Translations under genes and position numbers: made by a program
Virus record (IMG/VR): IMGVR_UViG_3300035670_005687
Location: 1-22,323 of that record
Length of the DNA: 22,323 nucleotides
Direction: 5' to 3' (one strand)
Source of the DNA: a virus
The notes under the pieces: model-generated
What the model was told of the DNA's origin: nothing
What the model saw: the letters and a program-made list of their open reading frames with translations, nothing else
Database searches by the model: none
Shown: one piece after another, positions 1,249-22,323 of the stretch
Layout of the letters: every line of letters begins with the position of its first letter
Position numbering within the stretch: position 1 is the first letter of the stretch

Positions 1249-4200
1249 ATGACCGTATACAATGATACATACACGATGACCGCGGATTTGAGTTCATTTG
1301 AACCTGAATTCAAGCGCGTAAACAAGCTGTTGGCCGACAATGGTGTCGCATTCGAGAAAGCCAATAGAGTCGCCTATGAATACGTACAAGAAGGCGAGAA
1401 CATAGTCAGGAAGCTACGTAGCATAGAACTTCAATTAAACGAGACTACCCGTGCACAATATAATCTAAATCGTGAACAAGGCAAATTTTCACTTGGCAGT
1501 CGTTCTGTATATCCTTCGTCACCATCATCTGGACAAGATCAACTGTTAAAACAGTATAATGATTCCATGGGAAGCAAGTTGCCGTCGTATATTACGGATA
1601 CAACCAAGTCCATGGATAAGTTGACGAGATCAACCAAAGACTTGGATGGTGCATCACAGTCCGTGCTGATTTCTTGGAAGTCCATTGGTCGGTTGCTTGT
1701 TGTTCAGACATTACATAGGTCAATCGCCTCCACTGTTTCCGCTCTACGTGACGGCTTCACCGCTTCACTTGACTTGCAAAGCAAATTTCTGGAAATCAGA
1801 GCAATAAGTCAGGACATACCACTGTCTATACAGACCTGGGCAACAGAACTAGCCAAAGTTTCCAGCAAATGGGGCGCGGATTTGTTCGATGTCACAGAAG
1901 GTGCATATCAGGCACTGTCAAATCAGGTAGCCAAAGGCCGTGATGCAATTCTATTTGTCGATGAGGCCATGAAACTTTCTGCTGCAACTGCATCAACAGC
2001 TACAGAAGCTGTCAATGCGCTATCGTCAGTTCTTAACGCATACGGCGAAAGTTCCAGTTCTGCTGCTAAGTACGCTGCACAGCTATTCAAAACGGTAGAA
2101 CTGGGTCGTGTGCGTCTCGGTGAAATGTCAAACAACCTTGGTGACATCGTGATTCTTGCATCAAACCTCGGCATACCATTTGAAGAGGTTGCTGCTGGCA
2201 TCACAATGATGACCAATCAGGGCATGAAATTCAATAAGACGGCTACGCAAATACGTGGTGCACTCAATAAGCTGCTGAAACCAACAGAAGAGATGCAGGG
2301 ACTATTTGATAGTTTCGGTGTAAGTTCTGGTGAGGCACTTGTTAAGCTGATAGGTTTCCCTGGTATCATAGAATCTATCAAGGACGAAACTGGTGGTGCT
2401 AGTAATGAAGTAGCCAGATACTTCAATACTATGCGTGGTATGTTGTTCGGTGTGGCAGTTACATCTGAACGTACGTCCGAACTATACAAACAGTCTATTG
2501 ACAAGATCAAAAATAGTATGGAGACCTATGAGGCAGCTGCCAAAGAGCGACTTAACTCACCGCTTGTGCAATTCCAAAGTAGGATGAAGGAAGTACAGAA
2601 CATGTTCCGTGTGGATTTCGGTCCAGCGATAATCAACACTCTAGCAGAGATATCCACACACTTCACAAATCTTGATTTGGTAGTTAAGAGCTTCACGCAG
2701 ACGTTACTGGTAGCTGGTACTGGCATGGGTATGTTGGCACTGATCAAAGGAATCAAATTCCTGGCGTTCGAGTCAGCCAAATACAATGCTGCGCTAGCAG
2801 CTGGCCTGGCGATATATGCAACGCTAACTTTCGCTGCCAACATGTACACCAAGACACTAGTTAAAGAACTAGACGGTGTGCGTGAGGAACTAGCGGCAGT
2901 CAACAAGGAATATGATCGTACACTGTCAGCTATGGCAGCTGTAGACGCTGACTTGATGAAGGAGCTTGAACGCCCGCTACTTACGATGGCCGCTAGGACC
3001 AATGCTGTGTTATCGCACGGTATGGAAGGTCTGATGGGCCAGAATGAGCTTCTGAAGGAGTCATACGAAGGCATATTCAAGAAGGCTGAGAGCGGTGCCA
3101 AGGACTTCGAGGATGCATACAAGGATGCGATAGATAATATCCGCGATGGTATCAAATCTCTTGATGGCGACATCAAGAATCAAGGTAACATAATCGACGG
3201 TATCAACAAGGCCATAATTGAATCAGGACGTGAACTGAAAGAAGTTCTGCTTGATGCATCGCTAGATGGTCTCGATCCGACAGCAGGTATACAAAAACTT
3301 GATCGCTATATCTCGCAAATGAGAGAAGCTGCTGCTAAGGCAACTGATCTTGAAACACACAATTACTACACGTCACAGATCAAGTCGGCGATCAAAGAGA
3401 AGAATTCACTCGCAACAGAGATTAACGAGAAAAACAAAGAGATCGACGAAGAACGCGCAGAGATAGCTGATCAGATCACTGAGTCAAAGCAGAAACTGCT
3501 AGATCTTGAGCGCGAATACCAGAATACACGTGAACAGGACAAGAAGAACGAGTTATTCACAGCGCGCAATGAGCAAGTCCGTGAGCTAGGTAAGTTGGAA
3601 GCTGAACTCAAAGGTAAGGTCAAGACCGCAGTACCGGACTTCAATTTATCCAACGAGTACGCGTCAGCTATAGCAGAACAGCAAGCACAACTTATGAAGA
3701 TGCGTGAAGCAGCACAAGCTGAGGAACTGCGTCTGCTTAATGAGAAGCACAACAGGGAAATCGCACTCAAAGAAGCTCTGTTAAAGCTTGATCTTGCCAA
3801 TATCCGCAAGAAAGCAGAGTCAGAGCGACAAGAGAACCTACTGACCGCCGCTCGCAAGAATCTCGATGCATTCGACCTAGAAAAAGCACTGCCGTCTGTA
3901 CGTAACCAGCAAAGTATAGATGACATCATGTCCATGAGGTATCAATCTGCTGCTAGGGTCAAAGAAGCAGGTGCTACAGATCAGCAGATGGCATCGGTAT
4001 TCGCTAGACTTGCTAGCGAACAAAACTACCTACAGACTCAGTTACTCAAAGTAGAAAATACAAATCGCAGAGACAAAGTAACAGAGGATCTTAAAGCAGT
4101 TGATGCTACACTTGAGAAACTACGACTTACAGAGGCTGGTTCTACCAAAGCTGTTGGCAAACTAGATATCCAGATCATATATTTAAATGATAAAATTGCA

Positions 4201-17613: not shown

Positions 17614-17625
17614 GATGATAGCATC
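17614..17625. promoter_or_regulatory. Palindrome GATG-ATAG-CATC (left leader, outer)
   Basis: A 4-bp-arm palindrome in the primase leader, 28 bp from the next one at 17642. It fits the GATG-N4-CATC plan. Candidate operator half of the mirrored set. Confidence 0.45.
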
Positions 17626-17640
17626 ACTCGCAGGGCAAGT

Positions 17641-17654
17641 TGATGGAACCATCA
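17641..17654. promoter_or_regulatory. Palindrome TGATGGAACCATCA (left leader, middle)
   Basis: A palindrome with 6-bp arms around AA, containing GATG-N4-CATC at 17642-17653. Read outward from the divergent centre it is GATGGTTCCATCA, nearly the same as the middle palindrome on the right side. Confidence 0.55.
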
Positions 17655-17665
17655 TGAGCAAAGCT

Positions 17666-17690
17666 CAAATGATAAATCATCATCTTCACA
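17666..17690 (-). repeat. 25-nt leader element, left copy
   Basis: On the minus strand this reads TGTGAAGATGATGATT, then ATCATTTG after one variable base. It matches 17905-17929 with one mismatch in 25 and lies about 41 nt past the leftward -10. It contains the palindrome ATGATAAATCAT at 17669-17680. A possible 19-codon leader peptide starts at its ATGATG, but without a good ribosome site. Confidence 0.8.
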
Positions 17691-17719
17691 TGGATGTTTG
17701 GCTATAGTGCCGTCATACT

Positions 17720-17741
17720 GTTACAGTCTAATTTTACTTAA
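17720..17741 (+). repeat. 22-bp inverted repeat, left arm
   Basis: Perfect reverse complement of 17852-17873. It begins GTTACAGTCTAA and ends ACTTAA. It contains the -10 hexamer of the leftward promoter. The matching arm is 110 bp away. Confidence 0.95.
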
Positions 17742-17761
17742 ATCTTATTCGATAGGGTCAA
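17731..17761 (-). promoter_or_regulatory. Leftward promoter for the primase unit
   Basis: On the minus strand, TTGACC at 17761-17756 is followed after 19 bp by TAAAAT at 17736-17731. Start of transcription would be near 17725, giving an untranslated leader of about 175 nt before the primase ATG at 17548. The 19-bp spacer is a little long for sigma70. Support comes from the mirrored copy on the other side, which shares both hexamers. Confidence 0.55.
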
Positions 17762-17832
17762 AAAGTTTTGTATATAGTGTATGGAAAATGAATTAACCTT
17801 TTCCTTATATAGGCACTAAGTGAAAAAAAGAT

Positions 17833-17862
17833 TTGACCCATACCCTAAAAGTTAAGTAAAAT
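17833..17862 (+). promoter_or_regulatory. Rightward promoter for the ParB-like unit
   Basis: TTGACC at 17833-17838 and TAAAAT at 17857-17862, spacer 18 bp. Start of transcription would be near 17869, leaving a leader of about 170 nt before ATG 18043. The sequence from just before the -10 through the presumed start point is the same as in the leftward promoter (the 22-bp repeat). Confidence 0.55.
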
Positions 17863-17873
17863 TAGACTGTAAC
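17852..17873 (+). repeat. 22-bp inverted repeat, right arm
   Basis: Perfect reverse complement of 17720-17741. It begins TTAAGTAAAATT and contains the -10 hexamer of the rightward promoter. Further inward the similarity between the arms weakens but returns at GGTCAA/TTGACC, the -35 hexamers. Confidence 0.95.
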
Positions 17874-17904
17874 CTATTGCAAGGTACCATAGACAAGTGG
17901 TGGG

Positions 17905-17929
17905 TGTGAAGATGATGATTCATCATTTG
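17905..17929 (+). repeat. 25-nt leader element, right copy
   Basis: Reads TGTGAAGATGATGATT, then ATCATTTG after one variable base; one mismatch to the left copy. It lies about 43 nt past the rightward -10. Its core ATGATG-ATT-CATCAT (17912-17926) is a perfect 6-bp-arm palindrome. An eight-codon frame from its first ATG ends at TGA just downstream. Confidence 0.8.
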
Positions 17930-17934
17930 GCAAA

Positions 17935-17950
17935 TTGATGATTCCATCAA
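17935..17950. promoter_or_regulatory. Palindrome TTGATG-ATTC-CATCAA (right leader, middle)
   Basis: A 16-bp palindrome with 6-bp arms, the best copy of the GATG-N4-CATC motif. It is 6 bp beyond the 25-nt element, and its sequence GATGATTCCATCA nearly matches the left middle copy. Probable operator for a dimeric DNA-binding protein; an RNA tetraloop hairpin is the alternative. Confidence 0.55.
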
Positions 17951-17995
17951 TCCCATCAGAAAGGAGTGTGAAACACTGTAGACGTATTGTGTATA

Positions 17996-18009
17996 TGATG
18001 GCTCCATCA
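17996..18009. promoter_or_regulatory. Palindrome TGATGGCTCCATCA (right leader, outer)
   Basis: A 14-bp palindrome with 6-bp arms containing GATG-N4-CATC at 17997-18008, 34 bp before the chosen ParB-like start. Two in-frame ATG codons (17995, 17998) lie at its left edge, but they lack a ribosome site at normal distance. Confidence 0.5.
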
Positions 18010-18042
18010 AAACGAACAAGACAAGAGAAAGAAAGCTACACT

Positions 18043-19083
18043 ATGAGCGGAACACTTAAAGTTATCGGACTGGCTGAGATTCGGCGTAACAAGGTTGCGT
18101 TGCGCGATGTTCTGAAGGATACGGAGACGTATCAAGGACTTGTTGATTCCATCAAACAAGTCGGCATCATGAATCCCATCTCTGTCCGCGAGAAGGTTGA
18201 CGAGCTTGGTGTCAAGTTCTTCGAGCTGGTTGATGGATTGCATCGTTTCTCGGCGGCCAGTGATGCTGGCCTCACTGAGATTCCAGTGCAGATCGTTGAC
18301 CTCGATGATGACATGATCCTGGAAGCGCAGTTGATCGCTAACATTCACAAGCAGGAGACGCGTCCTGTTGAGTACAGCAATCAGCTTCGTCGCATCATGG
18401 CACGTAACGCCCTGATGACTATCTCTGAGTTGGCACAGCGCATCAGCCGGTCGCCCACGTGGATCGAGCAACGCCTGTCGCTGAACAAGATTGACAACCC
18501 GCAGTTGAAGGAACTCATCAACAGTGGCCGTATCAACCTCACGAACGCGTTTGCGATTGCGAAGTTGCCCGCTGATGAACAGACGGACTTCACCGAGTGG
18601 GCGATGACTGAGCCGCCTGAGACTTTCGTTCAGCGCGTCAAAGGTCGTCAGAAGGAACTGCGTGAGGCGCGCCGCACGGGTGCTGAGTCTCCGGCTCCTG
18701 AGTTTGAAGCGAAGCCGCACATGCGGAAGCTGAGCGAGCTTTGTGATGATGACGGCATCAGGAAGGCAGCGGTCACGTTGGCTGGTGAACTTGATTCTGC
18801 GGTCGATGGTTTCATCATGGGTGTGAAGTTTTGCACCAATCTTGATCCTATCTCCATCGAAGCGAGCAAGGCCAAGTTCGATGCGCGTCAGGCTGAACTG
18901 TCGGATAAGCGTCAGAAACGCAAGGTTGAGGCGGCTGCACGTAAGGCTGCCAAGGCCGAGCATATCCAGAAGGAAGCAGCTAACGCACAGGCCGAAGTCG
19001 AAGGTCGCCCGTTGCCGTTCCCGAACCTGGGTAAGGCTCCAGTTGAAATCAGCGAGGACATTGACGCTGACGACGCGGAGTAG
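18043..19083 (+). CDS. ParB-like DNA-binding protein
   Basis: A 346-residue protein from ATG 18043. Upstream in-frame starts (TTG 17935, ATG 17995/17998) fall in palindromes and give a non-conserved basic extension; the ribosome site for 18043 is only a weak GAAAG. Residues about 5-110 are a ParB/Srx N-terminal domain: ISVRE, then ELVDGLHRFSAASDAGLTEIPV with GLHR in the place of GERR, and ANIHKQETRPVEYS in the place of ENIxRxDLxPxE, the parts that bind CTP in ParB proteins. Residues about 125-150 (MTISELAQRISRSPTWIEQRL) are the ParB helix-turn-helix. The C-terminus is Lys/Ala-rich with an acidic tail. No ParA is present in the window. It may bind the flanking palindromes and regulate both units, or act at an origin or centromere. 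Confidence 0.85.
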   Translation: MSGTLKVIGLAEIRRNKVALRDVLKDTETYQGLVDSIKQVGIMNPISVREKVDELGVKFFELVDGLHRFSAASDAGLTEIPVQIVDLDDDMILEAQLIANIHKQETRPVEYSNQLRRIMARNALMTISELAQRISRSPTWIEQRLSLNKIDNPQLKELINSGRINLTNAFAIAKLPADEQTDFTEWAMTEPPETFVQRVKGRQKELREARRTGAESPAPEFEAKPHMRKLSELCDDDGIRKAAVTLAGELDSAVDGFIMGVKFCTNLDPISIEASKAKFDARQAELSDKRQKRKVEAAARKAAKAEHIQKEAANAQAEVEGRPLPFPNLGKAPVEISEDIDADDAE

Positions 19084-19122
19084 TTGAAGTCAAGTTATCC
19101 TAGTTGATGGTTCACTCTAGTT

Positions 19123-19134
19123 GATGTATTCATC
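19123..19134. promoter_or_regulatory. Palindrome GATG-TATT-CATC after the ParB-like gene
   Basis: Same arm sequence as the palindromes in the divergent region, 40 bp beyond the ParB-like stop and 1 bp before the folded RNA candidate. It could be another site for the same DNA-binding protein. Confidence 0.4.
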
Positions 19135-19135
19135 G

Positions 19136-19218
19136 GGCGGCACCACGGAACTTGCTTACGGAACTAAGGGCAAGTGAAACGGTACTCTCACTGACGAGAG
19201 TAGGTTCGCCCTGCCGCC
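19136..19218 (+). ncRNA. Candidate structured RNA, three-way junction
   Basis: The outer stem is GGCGGCA (19136-19142) with TGCCGCC (19212-19218), 7 bp. Inside are CTTGC (19151-19155) with GCAAG (19170-19174), and TACTCTC (19183-19189) with GAGAGTA (19196-19202), 7 bp with a 6-nt loop. The octamer ACGG(A/T)ACT occurs three times, at 19145, 19158 and 19179. GAAC in the junction or second loop could pair with GTTC at 19204-19207 as a pseudoknot. It does not end in a T-tract and does not fit tRNA arm geometry. It may be a cis-regulatory leader, processed RNA or ribozyme of unknown type. Strand is inferred from gene direction. Confidence 0.45.
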
Positions 19219-19310
19219 AGATGTCTACAAACAAATAGAGAACTGTATCAAACGTAAGATGGCCACGTGTAGTGTCATCCAAACAACAGACAGAAAAGAG
19301 AGTTAGTCAA

Positions 19311-19994
19311 ATGGTAGAAGAAACACAGGTTCCGGCAGTGATGGGTGAGACAGGTATCGCAGAAGTCGCAAATGATCAGGCAGTCGCGTTGGCTGTTGGG
19401 TCTGGCAGTGGTGGTTACCTGGCTCGCTTGCAGTTAATGACATCAAACAGTCAGCCATGCAAAGATGGCCTGTTCCCGATTAACCACTACGCGATTGTGG
19501 ACAATGGGAACTTCGATGACCTGGGTACAGACGTACAGGCACACGTGCTTGCATATCGGCCCCTGGCATTGGACTTCAGTGATGATGTCGTAGCAGTCTA
19601 CGACCCGATGCTTGATAGTAAGAACCAACCGACAGGTGAGTTCGCACGTATCAAGGCGGCTGCTGATGCGAGTTCGGAAAGCGAGTGCATGTATGGTGTG
19701 CAGTTCCTGCTGTACATCCCAGCACGTGATCGCTTGGTTACACTGATGCTTGGCACCAAAACGGCTCGCCGTGAAGTACCAACAATGGTGAGTAAGCGCG
19801 GTACAGACGTTACTCTGAGTGCGAAGAAGATCGAGACGAAGAAGTACACGTACTTCTCCATCAAGATCGACAAGTGCACAGAGGAACTTGATGTTCCCAT
19901 CAGTGAAATTGCTCCTGAGATCGAGAAGTTCTGCCATCCGAAGGCAATTGAACGCACTCCGATCGAACAGGCATCACCTGATCGCGAACGGTAG
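19311..19994 (+). CDS. Conserved phage protein of unknown function, DNA-metabolism region
   Basis: A 227-residue protein from ATG 19311; an upstream GTG at 19272 lacks a ribosome site, while AAGAGAG lies about 8 nt before 19311. Visible landmarks are GGYLARLQLMTSNSQPCKDGLFPINHYA near residues 33-60, a YDP turn, CMYGVQFLLYIPARDRLVTLMLGTKTARRE at about 125-156, and TKKYTYFSIKIDKC with a C-terminal acidic stretch. I recognise this pattern as that of a widespread phage protein (LARLQLMT..S..CK.G.FP..HY, CMYG.efl.wiP, G.KsARRE) without an established function. The alternation of beta strands and position beside replication genes would suit a ssDNA-binding or recombination accessory protein, but no diagnostic motif proves it. 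Confidence 0.75.
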   Translation: MVEETQVPAVMGETGIAEVANDQAVALAVGSGSGGYLARLQLMTSNSQPCKDGLFPINHYAIVDNGNFDDLGTDVQAHVLAYRPLALDFSDDVVAVYDPMLDSKNQPTGEFARIKAAADASSESECMYGVQFLLYIPARDRLVTLMLGTKTARREVPTMVSKRGTDVTLSAKKIETKKYTYFSIKIDKCTEELDVPISEIAPEIEKFCHPKAIERTPIEQASPDRER

Positions 19995-20008
19995 AAGTTG
20001 AGTTGGTT

Positions 20009-20048
20009 TGGCCGGGTGGGTGAAACTCCCACCCGGCCAGTATTTCAT
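20009..20048 (+). terminator. Strong intrinsic terminator-like hairpin
   Basis: TGGCCGGGTGGG (20009-20020) pairs perfectly with CCCACCCGGCCA (20028-20039): a 12-bp, GC-rich stem with a 7-nt loop. It is followed by GTATTTCATT, a modest T-rich run. It lies 14 bp after the stop of the 227-residue protein gene and overlaps no gene. It should stop or reduce transcription into the next unit, although the next gene has its own ribosome site only 11 bp further on. Confidence 0.8.
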
Positions 20049-20059
20049 TGGGGAGTATT

Positions 20060-20500
20060 ATGCAGGTACAGTTGGTAGGTATTACATCATTCAGCCATCA
20101 GGATATCATCAAGTTGTACAAGGAACGAACTGGTGAATCACCGGCTCGTGGTATAGACTCTGTTGACATGAATGCCAAACTACCAAAAGGCATAATCTCA
20201 ATAATTGAGGGTAAAAATAACCCGCGCCCCAATCTATTCAATCCCAACCTACTAAGATTCGTACATGTTTGTTTCCTAGTTGTCAATGATGACCGCATCA
20301 TTGGCTCATCGCTACAGTCTACTACGAACTTGGATCTGTATACATCACAGGTTGGCGATGATTACTTCACCTACGTTTCAGGGTCGCTTGAACAGTGGTA
20401 CTTGTTCGGGCGGATGAAACCATCAGATAATATGAAAGCGTTCACGTCCAAGGTGAATGACTTCTTCGTCAGGCTAGCAATACCGGAGATTATGCTATGA
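20060..20500 (+). CDS. Hypothetical protein upstream of the helicase
   Basis: A 146-residue protein from ATG 20060 with GGGAG at 20051-20055; an in-frame TTG at 20048 lies on that ribosome site and is rejected. The product starts MQVQLVGITSF, has a basic middle with NPRPNLFNPNLLRFVHVCFLVVNDDRI, and ends with YVSGSLEQWYLFGRM and an amphipathic helix. I cannot assign a family. Its stop overlaps the helicase start as ATGA, so they are probably produced together; a helicase partner or regulator is possible but unsupported. Confidence 0.7.
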   Translation: MQVQLVGITSFSHQDIIKLYKERTGESPARGIDSVDMNAKLPKGIISIIEGKNNPRPNLFNPNLLRFVHVCFLVVNDDRIIGSSLQSTTNLDLYTSQVGDDYFTYVSGSLEQWYLFGRMKPSDNMKAFTSKVNDFFVRLAIPEIML

Positions 20501-22323
20501 AGGTTATGTTCAATGGTAAAAAGTATAAGGTTGAAGGCAACCTTCGTTTCGATGGTGAACGCATATTCATCACCACACCATTTGATCGGAAACTGGTGGA
20601 CGAGTTCAAGCAGATGGAAGGCGCACACTACTGTGGTTACGATACGCCGCCACTCAAAGCCTGGCGCATAAGTAATACGCTACGTAATCAGTTCCAGTTG
20701 AACTTCCTGCAAGGTATTAACGTCTATGCCAGGTATGATGCCGTCATCACCGACGAGTACGTCAAGACCGTGATGGGGAAAGCAAATTACCCACTTTACT
20801 CGCACCAAGGTATTATGACAGCACATATGCTGTTACGCAGACAAAGTATCTCGGCCTGTGAAATGGGATTAGGCAAGACGCTTTCAGCAATAGCTGCACT
20901 TGAAATACTGAAGATACCATCACACCTGATCTGGTACATAGGACCACGCGCTGGTGTACGTGCAGTCAAACGTGAGATAAGCAAGTGGAAGGCCAACATC
21001 TATCCGAACTTCTATACATATGAGGAAATGACGAGATACCTCAAACGTGATGAGTTGAAGGATTCGCTGGTTCCACAGGCCATCATATTTGACGAGTCAT
21101 CCAAGGTCAAGACGCCCACAGCACAGCGTTCGCAGGCGTCATTACTTGTGGCTAATCGCTGTAGAGAGAAATACAAGGATGATGCATACATCATAGAGAT
21201 GACTGGAACACCGGCTCCCAAGACACCGATTGACTGGTGGCATCAATGTGAAGTAGCGTGTCCAGGGTTTCTACGTGAAGGAAGCATTCAGAAGTTCAAA
21301 AACAACCTGAGCATTGTTGAACAGCGACAGTCTATACAGGGTGGCATGTATCCGCATCTGATCACTTGGCTTGATGATGAGAGCAAGTGTGCAGTATGCG
21401 GTATGCCACCTGATGGTGAGCGGCATACAAGTCCAGAGCTGATGATTGCAGCAGGACTGGATGCGGAACAATACCACGAGTATAGACGATCAGTGAATGA
21501 GGTAAATCGCCTGTACAAACGTCTGAACGGGCTTGTATTAGTACAGTTCAAGAAGGACTGCCTAGAGTTGCCGGAGAAAACGTATGAAACGATTGTCATC
21601 AAACCAACAGTCGAAACAATCCGTACTATGCAACTCATTACTAAAACAAGCCCAAGAGCAATCACCGCTCTTACGCTTTGTAGAGAGCTTTCGGACGGGT
21701 TCCAGTATAAGGAAGTCGATACCGGTGATGAGATCATCTGTAAAGTATGTCACGGTGCAGGAACGTGCAAAATGGCAGACGAGGTTGAGGACACGTTTGC
21801 GCCGAACACCGGTGACTTACCAGCTGACGCTTCAATCGGTATTTGTGATAAATGCGGTGGCTCAGGAAAAATCCCAAGAAAAGAAAGGATACCAGAGTTT
21901 TTCGGAACGCCTAAAGATGATGTTCTCATCGAGCTTCTGGACGAACATGAGGAAGTAGGTAGGATCATTGTCTGGGGTGGGTTCACAGGAACTATTGATC
22001 GACTAGTCCGTATAGCACATGACAACGACTGGGCTACAATACGTGTTGATGGTCGTGGTTATCGAGCAGAACAACCAGACGGAACATGTATCAGTTCAGA
22101 GATATGCCTAAGTGCGATGGATGCATCACAACCAACCAGAGCACTGTTACTAGATAAGATACCGAAGTTAGCATTTGTCGGACATCCGAAAGCTGGCGGT
22201 ATGGCGTTGACGCTGACAGCATCACCGACCGAGGTATTTTACAGTAACAGTTTCGATGGCGAAGCTAGGATGCAGGCAGAGGACAGATTCCATCGTGCAG
22301 GAATGGACACTAATCGTGGTGCA
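20497..22323 (+). CDS. SNF2-family helicase-like ATPase with zinc inserts, 3' end cut by window
   Basis: Read from ATG 20497 (ATGA overlap) and open to the last base: 609 residues, no stop in the window. Walker A CEMGLGKTLSA gives K127/T128, motif II is IIFDESSKVK at about 197-205, and motif III is MTGTPAP at 235-241. The last part, VGHPKAGGMALTLTASPTEV and QAEDRFHRAG at 593-602, gives motifs V and VI of SNF2 enzymes. Between them are cysteine sets C298/C301, and C415/C418/C424 with C450/C453, the latter as CxxCHGAG and CDKCGGSG, like DnaJ zinc-finger repeats. Residues 1-100 form a HARP-like or DNA-binding N-terminal domain of unclear type. Likely a DNA translocase for replication or recombination. 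Confidence 0.9.
   Translation, partial: MKVMFNGKKYKVEGNLRFDGERIFITTPFDRKLVDEFKQMEGAHYCGYDTPPLKAWRISNTLRNQFQLNFLQGINVYARYDAVITDEYVKTVMGKANYPLYSHQGIMTAHMLLRRQSISACEMGLGKTLSAIAALEILKIPSHLIWYIGPRAGVRAVKREISKWKANIYPNFYTYEEMTRYLKRDELKDSLVPQAIIFDESSKVKTPTAQRSQASLLVANRCREKYKDDAYIIEMTGTPAPKTPIDWWHQCEVACPGFLREGSIQKFKNNLSIVEQRQSIQGGMYPHLITWLDDESKCAVCGMPPDGERHTSPELMIAAGLDAEQYHEYRRSVNEVNRLYKRLNGLVLVQFKKDCLELPEKTYETIVIKPTVETIRTMQLITKTSPRAITALTLCRELSDGFQYKEVDTGDEIICKVCHGAGTCKMADEVEDTFAPNTGDLPADASIGICDKCGGSGKIPRKERIPEFFGTPKDDVLIELLDEHEEVGRIIVWGGFTGTIDRLVRIAHDNDWATIRVDGRGYRAEQPDGTCISSEICLSAMDASQPTRALLLDKIPKLAFVGHPKAGGMALTLTASPTEVFYSNSFDGEARMQAEDRFHRAGMDTNRGA

Follow-up and report, generated by a model that had tools for sequence, protein, structure and literature searches.

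A predicted branched stem-loop between a ParB-like gene and its downstream neighbour in a tailed phage, and hairpins at the same boundary in related phages

Folded RNAs associated with phage genes have been described in several systems with which the element reported here can be compared. Intrinsic terminators between phage early genes are GC-rich stem-loops that follow a stop codon, the early genes of T7 have RNase III processing signals between them that are unbranched stems, and phage tRNAs fold with a 7-bp GC-rich closing stem. The operator of T4 gene 32 combines a pseudoknot with a less structured leader (PMC535899). The element examined in this study, a predicted stem-loop of approximately 125 nt between a ParB-like gene and a downstream gene (g2) of a tailed phage, has something in common with each of these. 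Like the intrinsic terminators, it is a GC-rich stem-loop after a stop codon, and it lies in the gap where related phages bear U-tailed terminators; unlike them, it is branched, has a longer, mismatched outer stem and lacks a U-tract after that stem. Its long imperfect intercistronic stem, with about two helical turns and internal mismatches, may be regarded as analogous to the T7 signals, although the T7 sites are unbranched and cleavage of this branched element by RNase III would be hypothetical. With the gene 32 operator of T4 and RB69 it shares a folded element and then an unstructured, A-rich leader upstream of a gene for an OB-fold, SSB-like protein, but the T4 pseudoknot measures ~28 nt (PMC535899), as opposed to a branched stem-loop of ~125 nt with a 4-bp pseudoknot at chance level. 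Compared to tRNA genes, finally, it has the 7-bp GC-rich closing stem and occupies a gap that holds tRNAs in three relatives (L036, L038, and L054), but it possesses no D, anticodon or T arms and matches neither ARAGORN nor Rfam predictions.

The window, i.e., the whole stretch of DNA analysed, is a 22,323-base IMG/VR virus record of an uncultured tailed phage (Table 1), in which the ParB-like gene and g2 belong to the replication module. The start of its ParB-like gene was placed on the basis of homologues, and its stop codon is separated by a gap of 227 nt from the ATG of g2, for which an in-frame GTG at 19272 is another possible start codon. The first-pass annotation placed the core of the element outside any gene, and it indeed sits between the ParB stop and the g2 start codon; the only ORFs within the element are a TTG frame of 28 aa on the plus strand and one of 50 aa on the minus strand. 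A DNA similarity search with positions 17900-22323 found no nucleotide relative in phage records, the g2 protein had no relative in phage records, the primase obtained only distant matches among them, and a search of bacterial genomes for prophage relatives found none.

Table 1. Positions of the features discussed; coordinates are those of the window unless a related locus is named.
Feature	Position	Strand	Description
Tape measure, D12 methyltransferase, SNF2-type helicase	window		tailed-phage genes; tape measure is PhageMin_Tail
Primase	window	-	with DUF5906
ParB-like gene	18043-19083	+	upstream of element; ParB_N and HTH_ParB
g2	19311-19994	+	downstream of element; OB-fold, SSB/RDF-like by structure
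Core as first reported	19136-19218	+	83 nt; 7-bp outer stem and two inner hairpins
Full element	19115-19239	+	~125 nt; outer stem prolonged outward, 23 bp in all, symmetric mismatches
Hairpin 1	19150-19175	+	ACUUGCUU/GGGCAAGU, two G.U pairs
Hairpin 2	19183-19202	+	UACUCUC/GAGAGUA, loop ACUGAC
ACGGWACT	19145-19186	+	three copies, at 19145, 19158, and 19179
GATG-N4-CATC palindrome	19121-19136		TTGATGTATTCATCGG; left boundary of core
Post-g2 hairpin	20008-20040	+	strong, weak U tail
25-nt inverted-repeat arms	17666-17690/17905-17929
22-nt perfect inverted-repeat arms	17720-17741/17852-17873
56-nt pseudoknot module	L016 3801-3856
56-nt pseudoknot module	L034 3860-3915
56-nt pseudoknot module	L149 2237-2292		same in L150
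56-nt pseudoknot module	L151 6007-6062	-

The 7-bp GC-rich outer stem and the two inner hairpins of the first-pass annotation were predicted here as well, with pair probabilities mostly >0.9: 0.99-1.0 for the outer stem GGCGGCA/UGCCGCC (0.71 for its innermost pair), 0.64-0.94 for hairpin 1 (19150-19157/19168-19175), and 0.73-0.96 for hairpin 2 (19183-19189/19196-19202). The extent of 83 nt, however, has to be revised, the core being the apical part of a longer element in which further helices (CUCUA/UAGAG, UUG/CAA, UGUA/UACA, and CAUC/GAUG), separated by symmetric 1x1, 1x1, 2x2, and 1x1 mismatches, reach outward to 19115-19239. The palindrome reported as the left boundary of the core is present, and its CATC half also belongs to the extended stem. 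The threefold ACGGWACT was likewise recovered; it occurs nowhere else in the window, and three such 8-mers (with at most one mismatch) were found in 8 out of 1000 shuffles. The possible GAAC/GUUC pseudoknot, on the other hand, was dropped as being at chance level, since shuffling of the loop and junction sequences leads one to expect such a 4-bp match in 14% of pairs.

The significance of the folding energy of the element alone is modest. The 83-mer has a minimum free energy of -31.1 kcal/mol, with a z-score of only -2.4 to -2.6 versus shuffles, and when the window was cut into 125-nt tiles, 12 out of 295 others, mostly coding ones, had a z-score below that of the tile at 19126. This is consistent with an incidental origin, in which a GC-rich, locally duplicated intergenic stretch beside a GATG/CATC palindrome would fold by accident, without any function of its own. 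The chance expectation of the 4-bp pseudoknot and the absence of any detected homologue of the element (see below) also agree with this, and the outermost CAUC/GAUG pairs may be favoured because GATG and CATC are in genome-wide excess. With comparative support lacking for the element itself, incidental folding has to be taken seriously as a rival. However, the extended element reaches a z-score of -4.0 as RNA and -5.2 as DNA, and in three quarters of the relatives the corresponding gap contains a significant hairpin, so that we regard a chance fold as rather unlikely.

The first-pass annotation had called for an Rfam search and a covariance model, and both were run. The Rfam 15 covariance models gave no match in positions 19050-19320, either at the gathering threshold or up to E = 10, which agrees with its failure to match a hammerhead or HDV-type ribozyme; with no Rfam 15 family match, identity with a known self-cleaving ribozyme or riboswitch was rejected, and nothing beyond the fold speaks for a ribozyme. 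That the element is neither a tRNA nor an intrinsic terminator could also be corroborated: ARAGORN called no tRNA or tmRNA at the element and the Rfam tRNA model did not match it, and a plain intrinsic terminator does not fit, given the absence of both a terminator call and a U-tract, as neither AGAUGUCU, 3' of UGCCGCC, nor AACUGUAU, 3' of the extended stem, is one. No promoter was called at the element either. The covariance model of the single window element (R1) matched just this element among 77 loci, and in 40 whole phage records it found, besides itself, one chance-level match (E 4.0). In viral contigs, motif scans gave three chance-like matches, none recognised by R1, and a scan with a 21-mer gave none. 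The ParB-g2 gaps of relatives do not align with that of the window.

Protein-guided searches did reveal that the order ParB then g2 is conserved in ~70 distinct IMG/VR contigs, with ParB proteins 40-50% identical to that of the window and gaps of 10 to 832 nt. For 51 of these gaps and two coding controls, the most stable 50-nt fold was compared with 60 shuffles, and a hairpin was counted as significant when equalled by at most three of these. Significant hairpins were obtained in 75% of the gaps versus 10 and 20% of the coding controls (median z-scores of -3.9 versus -0.3 and -0.6), and the gap of the window is among them (equalled by 2 of the 60 shuffles). The hairpins differ in sequence among relatives, and they may be analogous rather than homologous to the element of the window. 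At least four T in the next eight bases followed 19 of 35 strong gap hairpins versus none of 96 coding hairpins, and many of the former are, therefore, plain terminators; the gap of L129 likewise holds a simple terminator. The non-Watson-Crick positions of the gap stems, read on the sense strand, comprise 20 G.U and no A.C (p 2e-6), versus 25 G.U and 19 A.C in coding stems, which indicates selection on the sense RNA and not on the DNA. The ParB-g2 gap is thus under selection for a sense-RNA hairpin, largely regardless of its sequence. The gaps of L009, L011, and L096 contained no structure at all in the 50-nt fold test. In the 100 nt after g2, hairpins are similarly enriched in relatives (61%), and the window has a hairpin of the same kind as these post-gene hairpins directly after its own g2.

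The wobble bias of the clade also bears on the idea that the element acts as DNA, i.e., as a decayed palindrome in duplex or extruded form, for instance within a replication origin or a centromere to which ParB binds. The element has two G.U pairs in hairpin 1 and its reverse strand folds equally well, its z-score as DNA is -5.2, and it abuts a GATG-N4-CATC site beside a ParB-like gene. Nevertheless, the G.U pairs of the clade point to RNA, and the GATG-N4-CATC sites are spread across the whole window, through coding and non-coding DNA, and not concentrated at the element; a role as DNA is, therefore, very improbable. There are 27 of these sites where 1.4 would be expected; their number peaks sharply at a spacer of 4, and they are densest at 17614-18010. 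They also occur in L028, L036, and L038, and a sister palindrome, GATT-N5-AATC, is present in L003, L009, L020, L022, and L026; the palindromes of relatives have TGAT half-sites, a spacer of 4-5 and a density similar to that in the window. The dispersed palindromes are probably binding sites of the ParB-like protein. The divergent primase-ParB gap (17666-17929) contains nested inverted repeats (Table 1) with GATG-N4-CATC sites just outside them, and is a candidate origin or control region.

The nature of the g2 product bears on a further alternative. Its sequence matched nothing in Pfam, PHROG or PDB, and its predicted structure (pLDDT 86) was most similar to the PhiC31 RDF (Z 7.7, rmsd 5.4, 155 aligned), with the gp32 cores of RB69 (Z 6.2, rmsd 4.3, 137 aligned) and T4 (Z 5.9, rmsd 3.9, 134 aligned) also matching, although scores of 5.9-7.7 are below the level that shows kinship. 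The best matches overall (Z 5-8) were to the PhiC31 RDF, HIN domains, gp32 cores and other OB-fold proteins; absence of a family from the match list was not taken as excluding it. The model suggests that g2 is probably the SSB-like protein of the clade. This, together with the A-rich sequence of the last 30 nt before g2, most of which is unpaired (0.67 in the window), allows a gene 32-like autogenous translational operator, in which the element would be the folded nucleation site, the leader over the ribosome-binding site would stay unstructured, and the g2 protein would bind this RNA once single-stranded DNA is saturated, by analogy with T4, whose operator has the same two parts (PMC535899). 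However, Z-scores below 8 may reflect a mere shared OB arrangement, the pseudoknot is at chance level here, many relatives carry U-tailed, terminator-like hairpins instead, and some gaps lack any structure. We consider such an operator improbable and, by a small step less probable still, one that serves a new family of OB-fold SSBs and has the element as its folded portion. Such a circuit would resemble that of T4 gene 32 but would have evolved with an RNA fold, and in a lineage of phages, unrelated to those of T4.

The ParB-g2 gap hosts other RNAs in relatives. ARAGORN identified tRNA genes in the gaps of L036 (5138-5210), L038 (5122-5193), and L054 (5176-5263), a further, tRNA-like sequence was recognised by eye in that of L090 (about 4025-4100), and each of these four lies downstream of a post-ParB hairpin. 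At about 3655-3830 of L028, a tRNA-like 5' half (GTTCCTGTGGTGTAGGGGTAGCACAC) and 3' half (GAGGTTCGATCCCTCGCATGGAACA), called by neither ARAGORN nor Rfam, flank a structured sequence of well over 100 nt, which gives the impression of a tRNA with an insertion. The gaps of L090 (3976-4402) and L121 (3979-4299) contain short basic or proline-rich ORFs (MAKP...), a further sign that this gap is a cargo site. The gap of L016 (3511-3943) contains GTGGATTAGATACCCAC, which includes GGATTAGATACCC, the sequence of the universal 16S rRNA 790-loop; it is also home to a 56-nt RNA module that is common to L016, L034, L149/L150, and L151. The module has the layout AGA-N6-N4-N7-CUAGGUGUG-N6-CCCGYUAGAGGAA-N-N7, of which CUAGGUGUG and CCCGYUAGAGGAA are conserved, and its fold combines a 7-bp stem with a 6-bp pseudoknot. 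Both sides change in 11 of its 13 pairs, 94% of cells are paired versus 55% in shuffles, and sliding the register by 1-3 positions abolishes the pairing signal. Its copies in L016 and L034 sit in the ParB-g2 gap, and those in L149 and L151 lie within a tRNA-like frame, where they take the place of its anticodon arm. The module has no Rfam match, GTDB genomes scanned for the exact motif contained none, and no fitting description of a comparable tRNA-like pseudoknot RNA from phages emerged from a literature search. As an RNA it has better support than the element of the window, which it does not explain.

Since the gap hosts tRNA genes and pseudoknot RNA in relatives, an independent non-coding RNA has to be considered, i.e., the element could be a stand-alone small RNA gene, structured or tRNA-derived, at a phage cargo site, as the tRNA genes in three gaps, the tRNA-like sequence in that of L090 and the covarying module in two others would suggest. 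The element, however, matched neither a tRNA nor, at E<=10, any Rfam family, it obtained no promoter call and no relative in any search, and the model of the pseudoknot module (R2) found no match in the window; we give this possibility little credence. Of the structured RNA proposed by the first-pass annotation, the fold is retained but its status as a separate RNA seems less likely, because relatives share the position and some strong sense-RNA hairpin, which favours a local mRNA element over a separate structured-RNA gene.

The explanation that we prefer, tentatively and with a little less than even confidence, is that the element is a cis-acting intercistronic stem-loop of the ParB-g2 transcript that sets the boundary between the messages; on this view, it represents the post-ParB hairpin of the clade in a branched form specific to its lineage. 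The stem-loop would form in the sense mRNA downstream of the ParB stop codon, where it could stop or pause RNA polymerase or be both cut and protected by host RNases, and as a result ParB and the SSB-like g2 would be expressed at different levels. The analysis shows the fold and its position and, for the relatives, the enrichment of hairpins and the wobble bias of the sense strand. From these we infer that the element of the window does the same job as the hairpins of its relatives, and also which of these activities (termination or pausing, processing, or protection) it has: because there is no U-tract, processing or 3'-end protection seems likelier here than simple intrinsic termination. Counting against this explanation are the branched form of the element and its lack of a U-tract, unlike most relatives, and the absence of a sequence homologue (R1, 77 loci, 40 records).

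If this explanation is right, one intercistronic boundary in this phage clade nearly always bears a strong RNA stem-loop, the sequence and shape of which are free to vary, with simple terminators at one end of the range and branched folds and cargo that includes tRNAs at the other. It would also imply that a striking fold of a single sequence in a phage gap need not mean a new RNA family.
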